This document shows, in pieces, positions 32,995 through 40,327 of a stretch of DNA of 44,980 nucleotides (positions within the stretch are counted from its first letter, which is position 1; each line of letters opens with the position of its first letter). The position numbers were made by a program, and so were the translations under genes. The DNA is taken from positions 1-44,980 of the forward strand of contig CAMJPM010000013.1 of NCBI GenBank assembly GCA_946407725.1, written 5' to 3'. The stretch comes from an uncultured Lachnospiraceae bacterium. GTDB taxonomy: Bacteria; Bacillota; Clostridia; Lachnospirales; Lachnospiraceae. The notes under the pieces were generated by a model. It was not told where the DNA came from and did not search any database. It saw only the letters and a list, made by a program, of their open reading frames with translations.

Positions 32995-33027
32995 GATGAT
33001 CACCGGAATTTACAATTCCGGATCATC
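32995..33027 (-). promoter_or_regulatory. Hairpin abutting the DUF1385 ribosome site
   Basis: GATGATC (32995-33001) pairs with GATCATC (33021-33027) and CGGAATT with AATTCCG (33004-33010/33014-33020), leaving a 2-nt bulge and a 3-nt loop. The stem ends one base from the AAGGGAGA ribosome site. It could modulate translation or protect the processed 5' end. Confidence 0.5.
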
Positions 33028-33036
33028 GATAAACGA

Positions 33037-33058
33037 GCCGCCACCCTTAGGTGACGGC
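33037..33058 (-). terminator. Terminator-like hairpin after rpmE
   Basis: GCCGCCACC (33037-33045) and GGTGACGGC (33050-33058) pair over nine positions with one wobble, with a 4-nt loop. It lies 15 nt past the rpmE stop. Only a short T-run follows on the minus strand, so some read-through into DUF1385 is likely. Confidence 0.55.
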
Positions 33059-33072
33059 CCCTCTTTTACTGC

Positions 33073-33276
33073 TTATGAATTTATGCCATACTTCTTATTG
33101 AACTTATCTATTCTGCCGTCTGCACGGGTAGCCTTCTGCATACCTGTGTAAAATGGATGGCACTTGGAACAAACTTCCACCTTGATCTCCTGTTTTGTAG
33201 AGCCTGTGATAAATGTGTTCCCGCAGTTGCAAGTAACTTTCGCCTGATAGTAAGCAGGCTGAATATCCTGTTTCAT
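33073..33276 (-). CDS. rpmE: 50S ribosomal protein L31, zinc-binding type
   Basis: The 67-aa protein matches L31 and has the four zinc-ligand positions of the C+ type: CNCGNTF and [11 protein letters not shown], followed by [11 protein letters not shown]. Length is typical. The start has AAGGTGAGG upstream. A leader of about 95 nt with a stable hairpin (33301-33324) suggests autoregulation, as known for L31 leaders in several phyla. Confidence 0.97.
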
Positions 33277-33300
33277 AACCTCACCTTATAACCTTTCTCC

Positions 33301-33324
33301 GGATCCCTGTCAAATACAGGATCC
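33301..33324 (-). promoter_or_regulatory. Hairpin in the rpmE leader, possible L31 autoregulatory element
   Basis: On the minus strand GGATCCTGT and ACAGGGATCC form a 9-bp stem with one bulged G and a 5-nt loop, ending about 25 nt before the rpmE start and adjacent to the AGAAAGG stretch. L31 leaders bound by their own protein are known in several phyla; I cannot match a specific family by eye. Confidence 0.5.
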
Positions 33325-33378
33325 TTTCCTGCAGACCATAGATTTCCAACCCAGAGCCTGAAAAATCGCAGCCCATAA

Positions 33379-33407
33379 AGAATATCACAGGAAAAGAAAA
33401 AAAGCAA
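33379..33407 (-). promoter_or_regulatory. Probable rpmE promoter
   Basis: TTGCTT (33402-33407) and TATTCT (33379-33384) on the minus strand with a 17-bp T-rich spacer. It would place the start about 95 nt upstream of rpmE. Confidence 0.5.
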
Positions 33408-33445
33408 GAGGGATGTTCCTTTGTATTTTTGTTAAGGCGTCACTG

Positions 33446-34996
33446 TCAGTCAATATCCGCCTTTGCGCGGACGATCTTTTTTGTGGAATTCTTTATGAAA
33501 GGATTCTTCCTTACAGTGAGGGCAGTGATGGTCCTGTAGCTTGGCTGGGTTTTATTATAGGCATTTATAATATCCTGGAGTTCTTTTGCCGCATCATCCG
33601 CTGATAGTCCTTTTCTCTCCATGACATCGGGATCAGGGTATATCCTGGCAAGAAGTCCGTTATTCTCCCCGGATATTACAACCTCGCCCACAAGCTCATT
33701 TGAAAGGAGGGTATTTTCAATTTCCTCAGGGGAGATGTTTTCCCCGTTACTTAAAATAATCAGGTTTTTCAGTCTTCCCGTGATAAAGAGATAGCCGTCC
33801 TCATCGAGATACCCCAGATCCCCGGTACGGAGCCACCCGTCAGAAAAGGCTTCTTCAGTTTCCTTCGGCATTTTGTAGTAGCCCTTCATTACATTGGAAC
33901 CCTTAACCTGAATCTCTCCGTCCACAAAGCGGATCTCCATGTTGGCAAGGACTTTACCTACGGAACCGGGTTTATTTCCCAGCTCACCGTTGGTGCTGAT
34001 GGTGGGAGAGCACTCCGACATTCCGTAGCCTTCGCATACCTGGACACCGTATTCCCCTAAAGCATTGATATAAAAGGGATCCAGATGGGCGCCGCCGGAG
34101 AATATCCTTTTGATGTTCTTTCCGAAAACCTCGGCAGCGATCTCTTCCTTTGGCTTGCTGCCTTCCGCAGCCTTAAGCCTCTTATAAATGGTCTCTATCA
34201 TGAGGGGGACCATTAAAAGTACCTGAGGCTCCACCATGGCAATATTCCGGAGCAGATGGAGCAGGGAGTCATTGATGTATATTGTGGCTGCCAGGGAAAA
34301 GCCCTTCATCCAGTCCATCACAAGGCAGTAGGCATGATGAACCGGAAGGACGGAAAGCATTGTGGTACCGGGTGAGAAGGACACTACCACGTTATCCACA
34401 TCATCATAAAGGTTTCTCTGGGTAAGCATTACCCCCTTACTCTTTCCGGTGGTGCCTGATGTGAAGATGATTGTACATACATCATCAGGGCCAGGCCTTT
34501 TTTCAGCCGGCAGTGAGGCATCGTCCGCTCCGTCCATCAGTTCATTTATGGATATGACCCCGTCACCGGCTCCCGCCGCATTGTCTGACAGCATAACCGT
34601 GAGCCTTAGTGCCGGACATTCAGCAAGGATCTTATCGAGATGGTCTTTTAGCTTCGGGCTGATCATCAGCACCTCGGAATCCGAGCGCCTGATAAGATCG
34701 CAGAGCTCCTCCACCGGAAGCATGGGATCTAAAGGTACCGCTGTCATCTTTGTACCAACTATCCCGAAATAAGCGCATATCCACTCATAACTCCCGGAAC
34801 CCAGAAGTGCGATATGGCTGCCTTCAAATCCCCGTTCCAGAAAGGCATGGGAGACCCGGAGCCTGTCGGAATTAAATTCCCGGTAGGTTTTTTCGGGAAT
34901 ATTCTTCTTCTCTATCCAGCGGATCGCCGGATTATCAGGATAATCCCGCACACTGTTTTCAAGAAAGCTGATTATGATATGTTCTTTATCTGACAT
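33446..34996 (-). CDS. AMP-dependent acyl ligase (ANL superfamily)
   Basis: From ATG 34996 (AAAGG 8 nt upstream) the product is 516 aa. Adenylate-forming motifs are intact: the P-loop FTSGTTGKSKG (178-188), VLPVHHAYC, the substrate-pocket GYGMSECSPTIS, WLRTGDLGYLDEDGYLFITG, the hinge region RLKNLIILSNGENISPEEIE and the C-terminal catalytic Lys in NSTKKIVR (about 507). The middle region resembles fatty-acid ligases more than amino-acid adenylation domains. With a free carrier protein gene directly upstream, it probably activates an acyl group and loads it on that carrier, although an acyl-CoA ligase cannot be excluded. It is the last gene of a four-gene unit. A set of four hairpins precedes its ribosome site. 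Confidence 0.88.
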   Translation of the reverse strand: MSDKEHIIISFLENSVRDYPDNPAIRWIEKKNIPEKTYREFNSDRLRVSHAFLERGFEGSHIALLGSGSYEWICAYFGIVGTKMTAVPLDPMLPVEELCDLIRRSDSEVLMISPKLKDHLDKILAECPALRLTVMLSDNAAGAGDGVISINELMDGADDASLPAEKRPGPDDVCTIIFTSGTTGKSKGVMLTQRNLYDDVDNVVVSFSPGTTMLSVLPVHHAYCLVMDWMKGFSLAATIYINDSLLHLLRNIAMVEPQVLLMVPLMIETIYKRLKAAEGSKPKEEIAAEVFGKNIKRIFSGGAHLDPFYINALGEYGVQVCEGYGMSECSPTISTNGELGNKPGSVGKVLANMEIRFVDGEIQVKGSNVMKGYYKMPKETEEAFSDGWLRTGDLGYLDEDGYLFITGRLKNLIILSNGENISPEEIENTLLSNELVGEVVISGENNGLLARIYPDPDVMERKGLSADDAAKELQDIINAYNKTQPSYRTITALTVRKNPFIKNSTKKIVRAKADID

Positions 34997-35009
34997 ACTC
35001 TGTACCTTT

Positions 35010-35134
35010 CCGCAGGCAGGAGTGCTATGTAACACATCTTTGATGTGTTACTATTAACAGGTCAGAGACCTGTTACATGCATCGGTGACGTGCCTGCCGC
35101 GGCACCGATGAAAGTTTGAAAGTATTACTTTCAA
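35010..35134 (-). promoter_or_regulatory. Structured 125-nt RNA region between carrier protein and ligase genes
   Basis: Four perfect stems follow each other. 35116-35134 is an inverted repeat TTGAAAGTA/TACTTTCAA. 35080-35087 pairs with 35103-35110 (CATCGGTG/CACCGATG). TAACAGGTC/GACCTGTTA lies at 35055-35075 with a 3-nt loop. GTAACACATC/GATGTGTTAC lies at 35029-35051 with a 3-nt loop. The loop of the second hairpin (CCTGCCGCGG, 35093-35102) is also complementary, with one bulge, to 35010-35020 next to the ligase ribosome site (35005-35011). A long-range pairing would close around two hairpins and could mask that site. Confidence 0.8.
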
Positions 35135-35137
35135 GCT

Positions 35138-35374
35138 TTACTCCTCCATACGTGAGTTGAAGTAATCCAGTGCTTCTCCGACGGTTGTTATCTTCAAAGC
35201 CTCCTCTTCTTCAAGCTCGATATCGAAATTGTCTTCCAGATCCCCGAGAAAAGTCATAAAGGACAGGGAATTAAAGTTCAGATCCTCCCTGAAGCTCATA
35301 TCCCTTGTAAGGTTTTCCGCAGGAATATCGCAGTAATTTGACACCAGTTCCAGAAATTCTCTTTCTTTATTCAT
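35138..35374 (-). CDS. Acyl/peptidyl carrier protein
   Basis: The 78-aa acidic four-helix protein has the phosphopantetheine attachment Ser36 in NFNSLSFM, replacing the usual DSL. Length and pattern (FREDLNFNSLSF, LEDNFDIELEEEE, TVGEALDYF) fit the ACP family. It is separate from any fatty-acid synthase genes and lies between a condensation-like gene and an AMP-dependent ligase, so it is likely a dedicated carrier for that pathway. No phosphopantetheinyl transferase is in the window. AGGAGG precedes the start. Confidence 0.92.
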   Translation of the reverse strand: MNKEREFLELVSNYCDIPAENLTRDMSFREDLNFNSLSFMTFLGDLEDNFDIELEEEEALKITTVGEALDYFNSRMEE

Positions 35375-35395
35375 TTTTACCTTGCCTCCTGATAA

Positions 35396-36787
35396 TTAAA
35401 TAGTACTGATGAGTTCCCCTATGGTTATATCCGGTTCATCCACACCCCGGAACATCATTTTCATCATGTAGTAGTAAAGGGTCTGCATGTCTTCATAGGT
35501 AAGGACGGCTTTCTGGTAATGATAATCAAAGATAAGCCCCCCGTCATTGCTGCTGTGAAGTACAGTAAGATATATTCTCTTTGTGGCGGCGCCGTTCGGA
35601 TACCATACGGAACGGATGTTTATACCCTTCAGGTGTTCATTCTGCATGCGGACAGGCATGGGCTGATATGTTAAGGACATGGAGATATATTCGGTGTCGT
35701 CCGGGGCATTGTACAGCTCTTTCAGCATTTTATCCACCTTTACGGGGTCATAATTGCAATGCATGTAAATGCGGTTCTGAACGTTCTGCATCTCGTAAAG
35801 AGCATCCAGAAATTCGGTATCCGGTGTGATAATTGTCCGGCAGGGGAAGGAAAGTACCCGGCTTCCTCCACAGGTCCACTCGGCATGGGTGGAGCGTCGG
35901 GAAACGAAATTTCTGAGCGTGATGTCATCCTGTCCCCCGTTGCACTTTGACAGGTAGGTGCGCATCACAAGGAGAATAAGGTTCGTCATTGAAACCCCCT
36001 GGTTTGCGCAGAAATCAAGAAGTGCCTGGGTGGGATGTGGTTCCAGATGGAAGTCTGCCACTCCCACGGAACGGTCATTCACTTCCACATCCGCAGCCCT
36101 TAAGGATTTATCACCATGCCTTTTTCTGCTCTCCTGCAGGATCTTCGGTCCCTTTATGTCAGAATAAATAGGCTCTCCGTTCTCGGTAAGGTAGTCATGC
36201 CAGAATTTCTCGTCCTTAGCCCGCCGCTTCTCATTATTTGCTTTTTCGAGATCGATCTTCAGCACTTCTTCAAAGGATGCGAGGGGCTCCGGATAGGGAG
36301 AACCGAAACGGTAATGGCAGTAGAGCTCCATTATGTCGTTTATCATTACTATAAGACCGGAGGAATCAGTGAGCCTGTGGTCGATATGAATATAGATACC
36401 GTTATATCCTTCGGGCATTTTCACCATCGTGAATTCTACCATGGGAATATCGGGCTCATTATACTCCTCATATGTCTTTTGCTGAAGGACAGCATCCGCT
36501 TCCTGCATGGACATGCCTGAAAGATCCAGGAACGGTATGTCCCTGGGGTCATTGTCTGCAATGTACTGCATCACGTTCCCGTCCTTATCAGGAGCGGTGA
36601 ACCTCAGGCGGAGGCAGTCCGCTCTTTTTATTTCCTCCTCGATACACTGCTTCAGGAGACCGAATTTGATCTCAGTCTGCAGTCCGGAAAAAATACTGAT
36701 ATTACAACACCTTTGAGTTCCTGTTTCCCTGATTGGCAGATATTGCAGCATCTGCCCTACGTTCAGGGGATATAGTTTTTTACTCAT
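35396..36787 (-). CDS. Stand-alone condensation-domain-like acyltransferase
   Basis: The 463-aa protein has the fold of nonribosomal peptide synthetase condensation domains or related acyltransferases. The catalytic motif HHxxxDG appears as DHRLTDS (136-142), keeping the general-base His137 and structural Asp141 but not the first His or the Gly. An N-terminal LNVGQMLQYL resembles the C1 motif, and SMTNLILLVMRTYLSKCNGG and FPCRTII match later motifs. Such enzymes join a carrier-bound acyl group to an amine or alcohol. With the adjacent carrier and ligase it may form a dissociated, single-step synthesis system. A strong AGAAGGAGG lies before the ATG. It lies 87 nt after the hydrolase gene. Confidence 0.85.
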   Translation of the reverse strand: MSKKLYPLNVGQMLQYLPIRETGTQRCCNISIFSGLQTEIKFGLLKQCIEEEIKRADCLRLRFTAPDKDGNVMQYIADNDPRDIPFLDLSGMSMQEADAVLQQKTYEEYNEPDIPMVEFTMVKMPEGYNGIYIHIDHRLTDSSGLIVMINDIMELYCHYRFGSPYPEPLASFEEVLKIDLEKANNEKRRAKDEKFWHDYLTENGEPIYSDIKGPKILQESRKRHGDKSLRAADVEVNDRSVGVADFHLEPHPTQALLDFCANQGVSMTNLILLVMRTYLSKCNGGQDDITLRNFVSRRSTHAEWTCGGSRVLSFPCRTIITPDTEFLDALYEMQNVQNRIYMHCNYDPVKVDKMLKELYNAPDDTEYISMSLTYQPMPVRMQNEHLKGINIRSVWYPNGAATKRIYLTVLHSSNDGGLIFDYHYQKAVLTYEDMQTLYYYMMKMMFRGVDEPDITIGELISTI

Positions 36788-36874
36788 TGAACCTCCTTCT
36801 CCATTTCATTCCTTTGTTAATGAGATTCCTTTTCTACGCCTGCCCCCCCGGCAGCCTGGAATGAACATCAAACC

Positions 36875-38161
36875 TTATTTATAATGCCGTTCCACATCCT
36901 TTGCTTCCACCGACGCTATGGCTTTCGCCGCCATTTCAGAGGTTTCCCGGCTTATCTCGTGGCCGGTTTTTTTGGGAGTGTTTTTCCTAACCTTTTTCAT
37001 GATGCTGTCCCATCCGCCTATCCGCTGCTTAAAGAGCCATTCCCTTAAGCCTTCATCCTTGAAAAGAACTTCCCAGCAGAAATGGGCTGACTGCCAGAAT
37101 ACCTGTCCTTTAGGGTAAACGGTAAGGTTATATTTAACCCCAGCCTTATCAAATGCGGCTTTTGTGGGCTCCAGTGTATAGGAGGGAACTATCAGGGGAT
37201 CGTCCTCTGAGTGAAAGATCCATATAGGAACGCCCTTTAATTCCGAAGCCCGCATGGGATTTGCCGCTCCGCAGGCGCAGATAAGCCCGGCAAAAGCCTT
37301 GGGGTGTTCTTCTGCCATTACATATGCGCCAAACGCCCCGGATGATATGCCGATAAGATATATCCTTTTATCATCAATGCTGTATTCCTTCTGCAGTTTT
37401 TCCATGAGTTTCCAGAGCACTTTAAGCTGGGGCATGGGCCAGAAAGGTGAATCGGAATGTCCGGCGATAAACTGATTAAGTGTAGTCCAGTTGTCTTCAT
37501 TGTCATAGCGTATGGTACACTGGGGCGTAAGGACCAGGCACTCCCTGATGCCCTTTTCCGAGTCCTCAGCCCAGACGGTGGCCATTTCGGTCTTTTTAAG
37601 TACCGCCGAAATATGTTCCTCTCTCTCTCCTGTTCCGTGAAGTCCTATCACTATCGGATATTTTTTCTTCTTATTATAGTTTTTCGGAATATAAAGCTCG
37701 TAGGGCATATTGATCCCGAATTCTTCATCATAGAATTCTTCCTCCCGGAAAAGGGAGCGTATGGCAATATTTGATCTTCTCAGGATCCTGATATCATACG
37801 CCTTTCCACTGTCATACATATTGGAAGCTTCTATCCTGACATTAACGGTCAGATCCTCGTCGAAGCAGCTCTCCCTTTTATCAAGACGGATGATGTAGCC
37901 ATCGTAATAATCATAGTACGGTACCTCGGATCCTGAGATATAGTCTCCCATGGAGGAATCCAGATTTTCAAAGCCGAAGCGTCCGGCATCCCTGTCAGCG
38001 GTGATACGGATGTAATAATCAGGATCATATTCCAGCTTCAGAAGCACCCCGAAGCAGTCCGAAGGCACCTCAAAATCATAGGTATTCCTGTCGGGATCGA
38101 AAGTAATAAGACTGTCAAAGGATGTGTTTATTCTTGCGGTTATACCGGTAATTGGATTCAT
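36875..38161 (-). CDS. Alpha/beta hydrolase with N-terminal beta domain (esterase-like)
   Basis: The 428-aa protein has an N-terminal beta-sandwich-like region (1-130) and an alpha/beta hydrolase domain of the esterase D or prolyl-oligopeptidase kind. It starts at YELYIPKNYNKKKKYPIVI, with oxyanion-region GLHGTGER, nucleophile Ser273 in GISSGAFG, acid Asp320/321 in HSEDDPLIVP and His360 in SAHFCWE. There is no signal peptide, so it should act in the cytosol. It could release or trim the product of the following condensation/carrier/ligase genes, or it could be an independent feruloyl-type esterase. AAGGAG precedes the ATG and a promoter lies at 38194-38222. Confidence 0.85.
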   Translation of the reverse strand: MNPITGITARINTSFDSLITFDPDRNTYDFEVPSDCFGVLLKLEYDPDYYIRITADRDAGRFGFENLDSSMGDYISGSEVPYYDYYDGYIIRLDKRESCFDEDLTVNVRIEASNMYDSGKAYDIRILRRSNIAIRSLFREEEFYDEEFGINMPYELYIPKNYNKKKKYPIVIGLHGTGEREEHISAVLKKTEMATVWAEDSEKGIRECLVLTPQCTIRYDNEDNWTTLNQFIAGHSDSPFWPMPQLKVLWKLMEKLQKEYSIDDKRIYLIGISSGAFGAYVMAEEHPKAFAGLICACGAANPMRASELKGVPIWIFHSEDDPLIVPSYTLEPTKAAFDKAGVKYNLTVYPKGQVFWQSAHFCWEVLFKDEGLREWLFKQRIGGWDSIMKKVRKNTPKKTGHEISRETSEMAAKAIASVEAKDVERHYK

Positions 38162-38193
38162 ACTGTGCGCTCCTTATTTATAATAATAATACA

Positions 38194-38222
38194 ATTCTAC
38201 CCGAATTAAGAGTTATTTACAA
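38194..38222 (-). promoter_or_regulatory. Probable promoter of the hydrolase-condensation-carrier-ligase unit
   Basis: TTGTAA (38217-38222) and TAGAAT (38194-38199) on the minus strand, 17 bp apart, about 33 bp before the hydrolase ATG. Confidence 0.65.
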
Positions 38223-38291
38223 TAAACAGTTTTTCAAAAGAAGAAATCCCTTTGAATCCTTTTGAATCTCTGAACAGCAATCATGTTATCT

Positions 38292-38320
38292 TTGAAATCT
38301 GCCGGGATTCTTGATATACT
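38292..38320 (+). promoter_or_regulatory. Probable promoter of the MBG-domain protein gene
   Basis: TTGAAA (38292-38297) and TATACT (38315-38320) on the plus strand with a 17-bp spacer. The leader to ATG 38552 would be about 225 nt and includes the Big2-like relic. Confidence 0.6.
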
Positions 38321-38347
38321 TTATGTGGCACGCATAATTCATTATGA

Positions 38348-38509
38348 GTGGAACCGGCTGATAATAAACCGTTTTTTAAGTCAGGCTGGCCGTTTTGTTT
38401 CAAGAATGAGAAAGGAAAGCTCGTTGCCAGGAATGCCGGTACCTGTGATATCTATGCCATAGCCCAGGATGGGCAACTGGAAACCATAAAGCTTGTTGTT
38501 GTGGAATAA
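38348..38509 (+). pseudogene. Relic of a Big2-type Ig-like domain
   Basis: The frame open from a GTG at 38348 to TAA 38509 encodes ... FKNEKGKLVARNAGTCDIYA followed by IAQDGQLETIKLVVVE. This is the end of a bacterial Ig-like (Big2) domain as found at the C-terminus of clostridial surface proteins (K-G-K-L-V-A-x-x-A-G-T-C-x-I-Y-x-x-A-Q-x-G). No ribosome site or signal peptide remains. It is probably the 3' remnant of a lost surface protein gene that used the same promoter. Confidence 0.6.
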
Positions 38510-38551
38510 GGGTCGAATTCGCAGACAGGGATAGAAAAAAGGAGGTGTTTC

Positions 38552-40327
38552 ATGAGGGGTATGATTAAAAAGAGCTTTAGTAAAATGATAGCGATGTTTA
38601 TCGCTCTCAGTATGGTTTTGACGGTATTGCCATTGGGGGCGGATGGGCGGATCTATGCCGGAAATCAGCTGGAACCGCCGAAAGCCATAGCCATAGCCGC
38701 TAATTCCATAACTCTTGAACAGCATCAAGGATATATGTACAGGATGGATGACGGAGAATGGACGGAGAACAATGTGTTTACAGGCCTTCAGAAACAGACC
38801 TCCTACACTTTCTATCAGCGACAGGGGGAAGATGCCGGTACGGAGAGCAATGGAATCATAATAGTAACCTCCGACCATAACCATGAATGGGTCATTACTG
38901 CGGAAGGAAATACCATCACGGCGGAATGCAGGAACTCGGACGGAAACCATATTGGTGAAACGGCTTCATCCATAATCATCAACAAGCCGGAAAGAACGGT
39001 TTACGGTGGGAGCGGAAGTCCGGAAGCTACCCTCTCCGGAAGCATAGATAACGTACCGAATCCCGCAATAGTATATAAGAAAGACGGAGATCTCTTAAAC
39101 GGGGCGCCTGAAAATGCAGGAGAGTATACGGCAGAGATAACCATCGCAGGGACTACGGCTTCTGTTGAATATACGATTGAAAGGAAACCGGTTTCGTTAA
39201 AAGCGGATGACCTATACAAGTATGAAGGGGATAAAGACCCGGAACTGTCCGCTTCAGCGACAGGATTAACAGGAAACGATACGGTCACATATACAAGTAT
39301 CTTCCGTCAGGCCGGGGATGCTGCAGGAACCTATACTATCACTGTTACGGGCGATGAGATTCAGGGAAACTATAAGGTAACTTTTGAACCCGGCACCCTG
39401 ACCATAATTGAACGTCCCAAAGAGGAGAAGGGCGACGATCCAGATGACGAGCCGGAAGAAGAACCAACTCCCTCTCCCACGCCGGATCCGACTCCCTCGC
39501 CGACTCCCGAGCCAACACCTGCGCCCACGCCGGCTCCCAATCCAACGCCTGCACCCACGCCGGCTCCCGAGCCTGAGCTTCCCCCGGAACCCGAGGATCC
39601 CGTAATACCATCTCCCGATGTGGGGATAAGGATACCGACAATGTTCAGGCTGCTCAGAAAGGCGGGAGTAAAGAACGTCATCAGCGGTAATCAGATAGTC
39701 TTATACGCTCCGAGGGACACGATCAGCTTTAACGGCAGATCCCACATAAAGAAGGAAGGCGGATCTTCCACAAATAAGAAGATAGCAGATCTGACCATAA
39801 GCGTTGACGGCATCCCTGATGTCATTACTGAAAAGTATTATTATAAGAAGAACAAAAATGCTTCCAACGGAGCCTGTTATTATATCTCTTTGAAGGTGAA
39901 TAAGGGCAGTTCTGACTGGGCGCTGCTTTCAGATTCTGACAAGTCTTCCCTGAAGAAAGCGCTGAAGGACGCCAATAAGACGTTAAAGCAGAACAAGGTT
40001 TATTTTACCATACAGAAGCTTAATCTATCGGAATTTGAATTTGATAATACCACAAGTCAGAAGAACAATATGGTATTCCGCAGGAAGGATGGTTCAGGGG
40101 ACTGGCTGGCCGTTAAGCAGCATGGAGGAAAAAAGCACTACATCGAGAACCTGCAGATAAAAGAAAAGCACTCCTCCGGTTACCATGTGGAAGCGTTCAT
40201 TCAGGGTAAATCCTTTAAGATTTCCGGAAGCGAGTACAGCAAGTCTGAACAGGACGGAGGAATGACGATTACCGGAGCAGAGAATAACCTTACAGGTTCC
40301 GTGACAGGAAAACTCGCAGCGCAGTAG
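38552..40327 (+). CDS. Secreted MBG-domain protein with Pro-Thr-rich linker
   Basis: The 591-aa protein has a signal peptide (residues 1-36, KMIAMFIALSMVLTVLPLGA core). Two MBG-like beta domains follow (about 148-215 and 215-290; ending YKVTFEPGTLTIIER in the second). A Pro-rich linker (about 300-350) contains PTPSPTPDPTPSPTPEP-type repeats. The C-terminal 240 residues (from about IPSPDVGIRIPTMFRL) are a domain I do not recognise, rich in Lys and Ser. No sortase or membrane anchor is seen, so it may be released or loosely attached. It is the only intact plus-strand gene in the window, with a perfect AGGAGGTG before the ATG. Composition differs from its neighbours, and it lies among decayed genes. 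Confidence 0.85.
   Translation: MRGMIKKSFSKMIAMFIALSMVLTVLPLGADGRIYAGNQLEPPKAIAIAANSITLEQHQGYMYRMDDGEWTENNVFTGLQKQTSYTFYQRQGEDAGTESNGIIIVTSDHNHEWVITAEGNTITAECRNSDGNHIGETASSIIINKPERTVYGGSGSPEATLSGSIDNVPNPAIVYKKDGDLLNGAPENAGEYTAEITIAGTTASVEYTIERKPVSLKADDLYKYEGDKDPELSASATGLTGNDTVTYTSIFRQAGDAAGTYTITVTGDEIQGNYKVTFEPGTLTIIERPKEEKGDDPDDEPEEEPTPSPTPDPTPSPTPEPTPAPTPAPNPTPAPTPAPEPELPPEPEDPVIPSPDVGIRIPTMFRLLRKAGVKNVISGNQIVLYAPRDTISFNGRSHIKKEGGSSTNKKIADLTISVDGIPDVITEKYYYKKNKNASNGACYYISLKVNKGSSDWALLSDSDKSSLKKALKDANKTLKQNKVYFTIQKLNLSEFEFDNTTSQKNNMVFRRKDGSGDWLAVKQHGGKKHYIENLQIKEKHSSGYHVEAFIQGKSFKISGSEYSKSEQDGGMTITGAENNLTGSVTGKLAAQ

Follow-up and report, generated by a model that had tools for sequence, protein, structure and literature searches.

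What does a hydrolase gene do at the head of a four-gene unit whose other members resemble the parts of a published fatty acid amide (FAA) pathway? The unit lies on the minus strand of a 44,980-nucleotide stretch of DNA from an uncultured Lachnospiraceae bacterium (GenBank assembly GCA_946407725.1, contig CAMJPM010000013.1; the whole stretch is hereafter called the window). It consists of a hydrolase (HYD), a condensation enzyme (C), a carrier protein and an acyl ligase, transcribed in that order, and both the open reading frames (ORFs) and their Pfam domains agree with the initial annotation that these are four adjacent, dissociated genes. Our results indicate that the unit is probably an oaa-type FAA cluster, in a form particular to its clade. 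They also suggest, at somewhat short of even odds, that FAA clusters are often four-part, that is, that a dedicated serine hydrolase works in the pathway, was exchanged for an unrelated hydrolase in the clade of the window, and either frees fatty acid from lipid esters or destroys the amide. The genes are as follows.

36875..38161, minus strand: hydrolase (HYD), first gene of the unit; 428 aa; Pfam Esterase PF00756 (4.6e-9); match to PDB 3DOH (1.6e-42)
35396..36787, minus strand: stand-alone FAA-type condensation enzyme (C), OaaC homologue; 463 aa; Condensation PF00668 (2e-31)
35138..35374, minus strand: stand-alone acyl carrier protein; 78 aa; PP-binding PF00550 (8.2e-11)
33446..34996, minus strand (ORF open to GTG 35035): AMP-dependent acyl ligase; AMP-binding PF00501 (9.5e-61)

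The identity of the system follows mainly from C, which matches PDB 12KH with E 2.5e-179 and 54.8% identity over 460 residues. According to its data statement, PMC13142362 assigns this structure to OaaC of Coprococcus eutactus, which its main text describes as a stand-alone enzyme coupling carrier-bound fatty acids to free small amines to give FAAs, in a pathway of three proteins (OaaA, OaaACP and OaaC); that text and one review credit Chang et al. 2021 with the first publication of the pathway. The same text gives (D/H)HxxxDS as the motif of the FAA-type class of C, and the window protein fits it.

36365..36385, minus strand: C active-site motif DHRLTDS, residues 135-141, with His136 the expected catalytic residue

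Canonical condensation domains of nonribosomal peptide synthetases belong to the same fold family (PF00668) but carry HHxxxDG, whereas the window C has DHRLTDS and neither a linked acceptor carrier nor a linked adenylation domain; a separate carrier and a separate acyl ligase adjoin it instead, with no acceptor carrier. In a tree of C sequences, 90 of the 108 rows, OaaC and the window C among them, fall together and apart from DHxxxDA-type C (SH-aLRT 96), and the HYD-bearing rows make up, with locus L074, a single group of 32 (support 100); the tree was built by a quick method with a midpoint root, and OaaC is its one characterised member. The C. eutactus pathway likewise has a stand-alone C with DHxxxDS, a stand-alone carrier and a stand-alone fatty-acyl ligase, although the likeness rests on the C sequence, with OaaA and OaaACP compared by description only. 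Because C matches OaaC, and because motif and stand-alone parts fit the published FAA enzymes, the C/carrier/ligase trio is, judged by sequence, an FAA system of an already known kind. The suggestion that the unit was possibly undescribed is thus not upheld, since its C, carrier and ligase match the characterised OaaC/OaaACP/OaaA pathway, as far as the main text of that study describes it; the one-module acyl-transfer scheme that went with it, which left amide and ester open as products, survives as a dissociated system most likely making an acyl amide. What the window unit adds to the three published proteins is HYD as first gene.

We surveyed the position directly upstream of C (the slot) in two sets of loci. 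The first set holds the best 80 of 225 confirmed relatives from a scan of named genomes. Among the 33 of these loci whose C is at least 68% identical to that of the window (L051-L083), a same-strand HYD lies upstream in 31; of the two exceptions, L083 has its first base within C, and the 1.6 kb upstream in L074 is other sequence. The remaining 47 loci, 42 of them with at least 1.6 kb upstream, have HYD in none, and neighbour clustering recovered one upstream gene common to 36, three members of which Pfam typed as Hydrolase_4. Three genes lying at most ~65 nt upstream of C in loci of the divergent DHxxxDA type were Hydrolase_4 as well. The wider set comprises 137 loci (the window, L031-L130 and L173-L208), reduced to 126 distinct C sequences by dropping duplicates with identical last 250 residues; a slot call needed at least 1.1 kb upstream, and the locus groups were set by identity to the window and by motif after the data had been seen. 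HYD is directly upstream of C in 28 of the 29 distinct window-clade loci, which makes the earlier inclusion of the hydrolase in the unit well founded. A Hydrolase_4-type gene occupies the slot in 38 of 58 other OaaC-like clusters (four more were set aside for short flanks) and in all 28 distinct loci of the divergent DHxxxDA clade; slot hydrolases number 0 in the remaining seven loci. Over 1.73 Mb around C genes, 68 of 72 matches to the Hydrolase_4-type profile fall within the slot; since possession of a C gene was the criterion by which every locus entered the set, and six slot proteins served as seeds of the profile, these counts show position, not exclusivity.

The two slot hydrolases have position and strand relative to C in common, as well as the serine-hydrolase fold, but belong to different families: profile comparison of HYD with the slot Hydrolase_4 (PF12146) proteins aligns 89 core columns with 50% probability and E 1.6e-4. 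We considered whether HYD might be a close relative of these proteins and rejected this, the match being confined to the core. The simplest history would be that an ancestral Hydrolase_4-type gene was exchanged for HYD in the window clade. The two also differ at the N-terminus, where, with the threshold applied, a hydrophobic stretch occurs in 0 of 28 HYD proteins vs. 36 of the 66 Hydrolase_4 proteins from the slot. In 44 of the 66, positive charge is greater after that stretch than before it. The comparison is rough because start codons were picked mechanically.

HYD itself combines an N-terminal beta-rich part, free of any hydrophobic segment, with an alpha/beta-hydrolase domain holding a predicted catalytic triad. 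Its residues are invariant in 27 of 27 aligned sequences, the window included, and the triad, motif and carrier-serine positions given by the initial annotation hold.

37343..37345, minus strand: Ser273 of GISSG, predicted nucleophile
37199..37204, minus strand: Asp320-Asp321, predicted acid, both invariant
37082..37084, minus strand: His360, predicted base

The AlphaFold model (mean pLDDT 78) has as its closest structure the thermostable esterase 3DOH, presumably EstA, aligned over residues 26-380 with a root-mean-square deviation of 8.6. Like esterases of the 3DOH type, HYD has, by sequence, a Ser-Asp-His triad in an alpha/beta-hydrolase domain; unlike 3DOH, HYD sits in an FAA operon, and many HYD copies have a C-terminal tail of ~40 residues. 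Pfam gave no match to an N-terminal Ig/cadherin-like domain in the window HYD, and PF12733 in both distant relatives scanned. By sequence, HYD is inherited with the trio: over 29 clusters its distances correlate with those of C (r 0.90) and of the ligase (r 0.95), and four close pairs give ratios of nonsynonymous to synonymous substitution rates of 0.05-0.12 (comparisons with the window are saturated). Homologues above 50% identity occur in 2 of the 299 genomes of the family and 4 of the 48 of the genus. All of them adjoin a C gene, one of the four in the genus divergently and next to a C of another clade. Among 392 genomes of the order, another 14 have distant homologues (32-44%); the nine retrieved from these all have, by eye, a signal-peptide-like start, and Pfam scans of two of them, L158 and L164, gave LysM, cadherin-like and Esterase domains.

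Taken together, sequence comparison shows that HYD is inherited with the trio, keeps its triad and takes a slot that many other FAA clusters fill with a different hydrolase family. The occurrence of two unrelated hydrolase types at one position suggests that an activity, rather than a particular protein, is wanted there, and that hydrolysis is part of the pathway; the swap does not tell which bond is cut. Under the mechanism that we propose by homology, a phosphopantetheinyl transferase (PPTase) encoded elsewhere would arm Ser36 of the carrier, the ligase would activate a free fatty acid with ATP and load it onto the carrier, and C, via His136, would enable attack of a small free amine on the thioester that holds the acyl group to the carrier, releasing an N-acyl amide. 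Our preferred role for HYD, put forward tentatively, is intracellular cleavage of lipid esters, which would supply free fatty acid to the ligase. The amine might be 5-aminovalerate or gamma-aminobutyric acid by closeness to OaaC, a guess at 55% identity that we hold less firmly than the role of HYD. Clade-specific residues of C as a pointer to the amine were rejected, since OaaC has several of them too. With regard to amine sources, the bacterium's own genome gave no match to the decarboxylase family PF00282 (the control was positive in 8 of 14) and one to PF01276; a search for the proline-reductase type PF07355 carries no weight, its controls giving no match anywhere.

Several observations weigh against a regular hydrolytic step that supplies fatty acid. 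No slot hydrolase is detected by profile in 20 of the 58 other OaaC-like loci; L074, a member of the window clade, lacks HYD, and in one genome of the genus (G331) a C fragment of the window clade (89%) is present while HYD gave no match, the contig ends not having been checked. A search meant to reach the neighbourhood of OaaC itself in C. eutactus found no match above 57% identity to OaaC. Further, the nearest solved relatives of HYD are general or plant-polymer esterases and peptidases, not proven lipases, and the three-protein system, in the main text of PMC13142362, makes amides in vitro given free fatty acid.

These 20 slotless loci were inspected for neighbouring ORFs of at least 150 aa within 900 nt. 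In L197, a HYD homologue (53% over 379 residues) stands divergently beside C; a Hydrolase_4-type gene is present in divergent orientation in L097, at 1,156 nt and so slightly past the limit in L111, and ~4.2 kb off in L092 and L038. Of three neighbours scanned, the one in L041 is a Lipase_3 protein (8.4e-5; 22.9 bits vs. a cut-off of 22), a weak lipid hint, and the one in L086 a serine hydrolase of the beta-lactamase family. The third, in L201 (5754-9425, minus strand) is a fused AMP-binding, PP-binding and Condensation protein of 1,223 aa directly upstream of the stand-alone C, such that fused and dissociated versions adjoin; an ORF similar to it is found in L202 (6411-10127, minus strand).

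Alternatively, HYD might be an amidase that breaks down or recycles the cluster's own FAA, rendering a signal or store reversible. We regard this as unlikely, yet it fares best among the alternatives: HYD is inherited with the amide machinery, its fold neighbours include amide-cleaving peptidases, and several metagenome-assembled genomes (MAGs) with two or three clusters carry one HYD in every cluster (e.g., UBA3821), as would be expected of an enzyme matched to its product more than of a general source of fatty acid. However, its sequence neighbours are mostly ester hydrolases, and making and breaking a product from one operon would be futile without regulation, no regulator gene being seen in the window unit. 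A slightly less likely role is that of an editing thioesterase clearing wrong or stalled acyl groups from the carrier. Stand-alone hydrolases beside carrier proteins often edit (type II thioesterases), and a single HYD copy per cluster fits such a role, but no type II thioesterase family (which we take to be PF00975) appeared among the Pfam matches at E ≤0.01, and the N-terminal domain of HYD is, we assume, not typical of editing enzymes.

It is improbable, in our judgement, that HYD is an ordinary esterase acting on esters from the diet or the cell wall and shares the transcription unit by chance. This would agree with the signal-peptide-like N-termini, by eye, of the full-length relatives closest to it that are not in FAA clusters (36-42% identity), with the LysM and cadherin-like domains of the two scanned, and with feruloyl and acetyl xylan esterases among its fold neighbours. 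Nevertheless, none of the 28 HYD proteins from clusters has a hydrophobic segment at its N-terminus, the closer homologues of HYD were seen only beside C genes, as counted above, and another hydrolase family occupies the slot in other clades. Finally, that the product is an ester or other acyl compound is more doubtful still: C-fold enzymes can make esters, but the functional evidence for FAA-type C, as far as the published text sets it out, is amide formation with free amines.

Returning to HYD as a dedicated pathway hydrolase, what looks new here is the slot as a testable point, the kind of pathway itself being known. If the hydrolase is a regular part, three-protein reconstitutions omit a step, and its gene could serve as a marker when FAA clusters are searched for; cleavage of lipid esters would make the cluster a lipid-to-amide converter, and destruction of the amide would make the signal reversible. 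Gut FAAs act on host G-protein-coupled receptors (main text of PMC13142362), and hence bacterial supply and turnover of the fatty acid matter. In the literature searched, only PMC13142362 deals with the enzymology of FAA-type C, and the words ‘hydrolase’ and ‘esterase’ were not found in its main text, although its supplements or the 2021 paper may mention one; the phrase ‘fatty acid amide’ was not found in the rumen and gene-cluster literature searched.

The remaining features of the unit concern carrier arming, the carrier-ligase spacer and the flanks.

35267..35269, minus strand: Ser36 of the carrier (FNSL), predicted phosphopantetheine site
35005..35137, minus strand: carrier-ligase spacer, one copy of a genomic repeat that is dispersed and folds strongly (own-genome match search, folding)
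38194..38222, minus strand: promoter-like TTGTAA-17-TAGAAT upstream of HYD; match count not above chance

No PPTase gene was seen beside the unit, as had been pointed out before, and the whole genome gave one PF01648 match, a 241-aa, Sfp-sized protein at G000:C111 that probably serves the unit. The ligase most likely starts at ATG 34996, which has GGAAAGG in front, rather than at GTG 35035, judged from the sequence; the resulting lengths are 516 and 529 aa, and full-length relatives have 506-543 aa. The repeat in the spacer has 62 matching segments listed in the own genome, at 36 separate places below E 0.0025; its core is approximately the first 58 nt, it forms strong hairpins (-53.6 kcal/mol, z -6.5), and it is probably no part of the pathway. 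No Rfam match was obtained at gathering thresholds, either for the repeat or for 33000-38700 as a whole. In that same interval the promoter pattern has 10 matches vs. 9.6 expected from shuffled sequence; the pattern proposed as the unit's own promoter is thus present, yet at a chance count.

Downstream, Pfam identifies ribosomal protein L31 and DUF1385, and upstream, divergent from the unit, lies 38552-40327 (plus strand), whose product has an MBG domain, a linker rich in proline and an N-terminus that by eye resembles a leader. A search for a fifth conserved gene in the window clade (33 loci plus the window, ORFs of at least 80 aa, a limit below which the carrier mostly falls) found none common to more than four sources, antisense-overlap frames aside. 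In a deer sub-clade (L078:5960-6799, L079 and L080:5989-6819), a response-regulator gene lies directly upstream of HYD, with PF00072 tested on L078.

With respect to distribution, C homologues (E ≤1e-40) were found in 42 of the 299 genomes of the family and in 16 of the 48 of the genus, where four of them reach only 27-28% identity. Consistent with the earlier expectation that the genes co-occur in other genomes, a downstream carrier was detected in 113, and a ligase in 115, of the 126 distinct C loci; C homologues with DHRxxDS in L042, L043 and L200 had neither detected alongside. By their titles, the best 80 of the 225 relatives are mostly MAGs of Lachnospiraceae or unclassified Clostridia, many from ruminants, and a few are labelled Oscillibacter, Eubacterium, Blautia or Alistipes, labels that may reflect binning. 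Two to three HYD-C-carrier-ligase clusters per MAG, on different contigs so that binning error is possible, are found in UBA3821 (L053, L066, L067), RUG375 (L056, L064) and RUG006 (L063, L073). Among the 47 OaaC-like loci L084-L130, an opposite-strand gene following the ligase is common to 38, and in L084 it is a TetR regulator.

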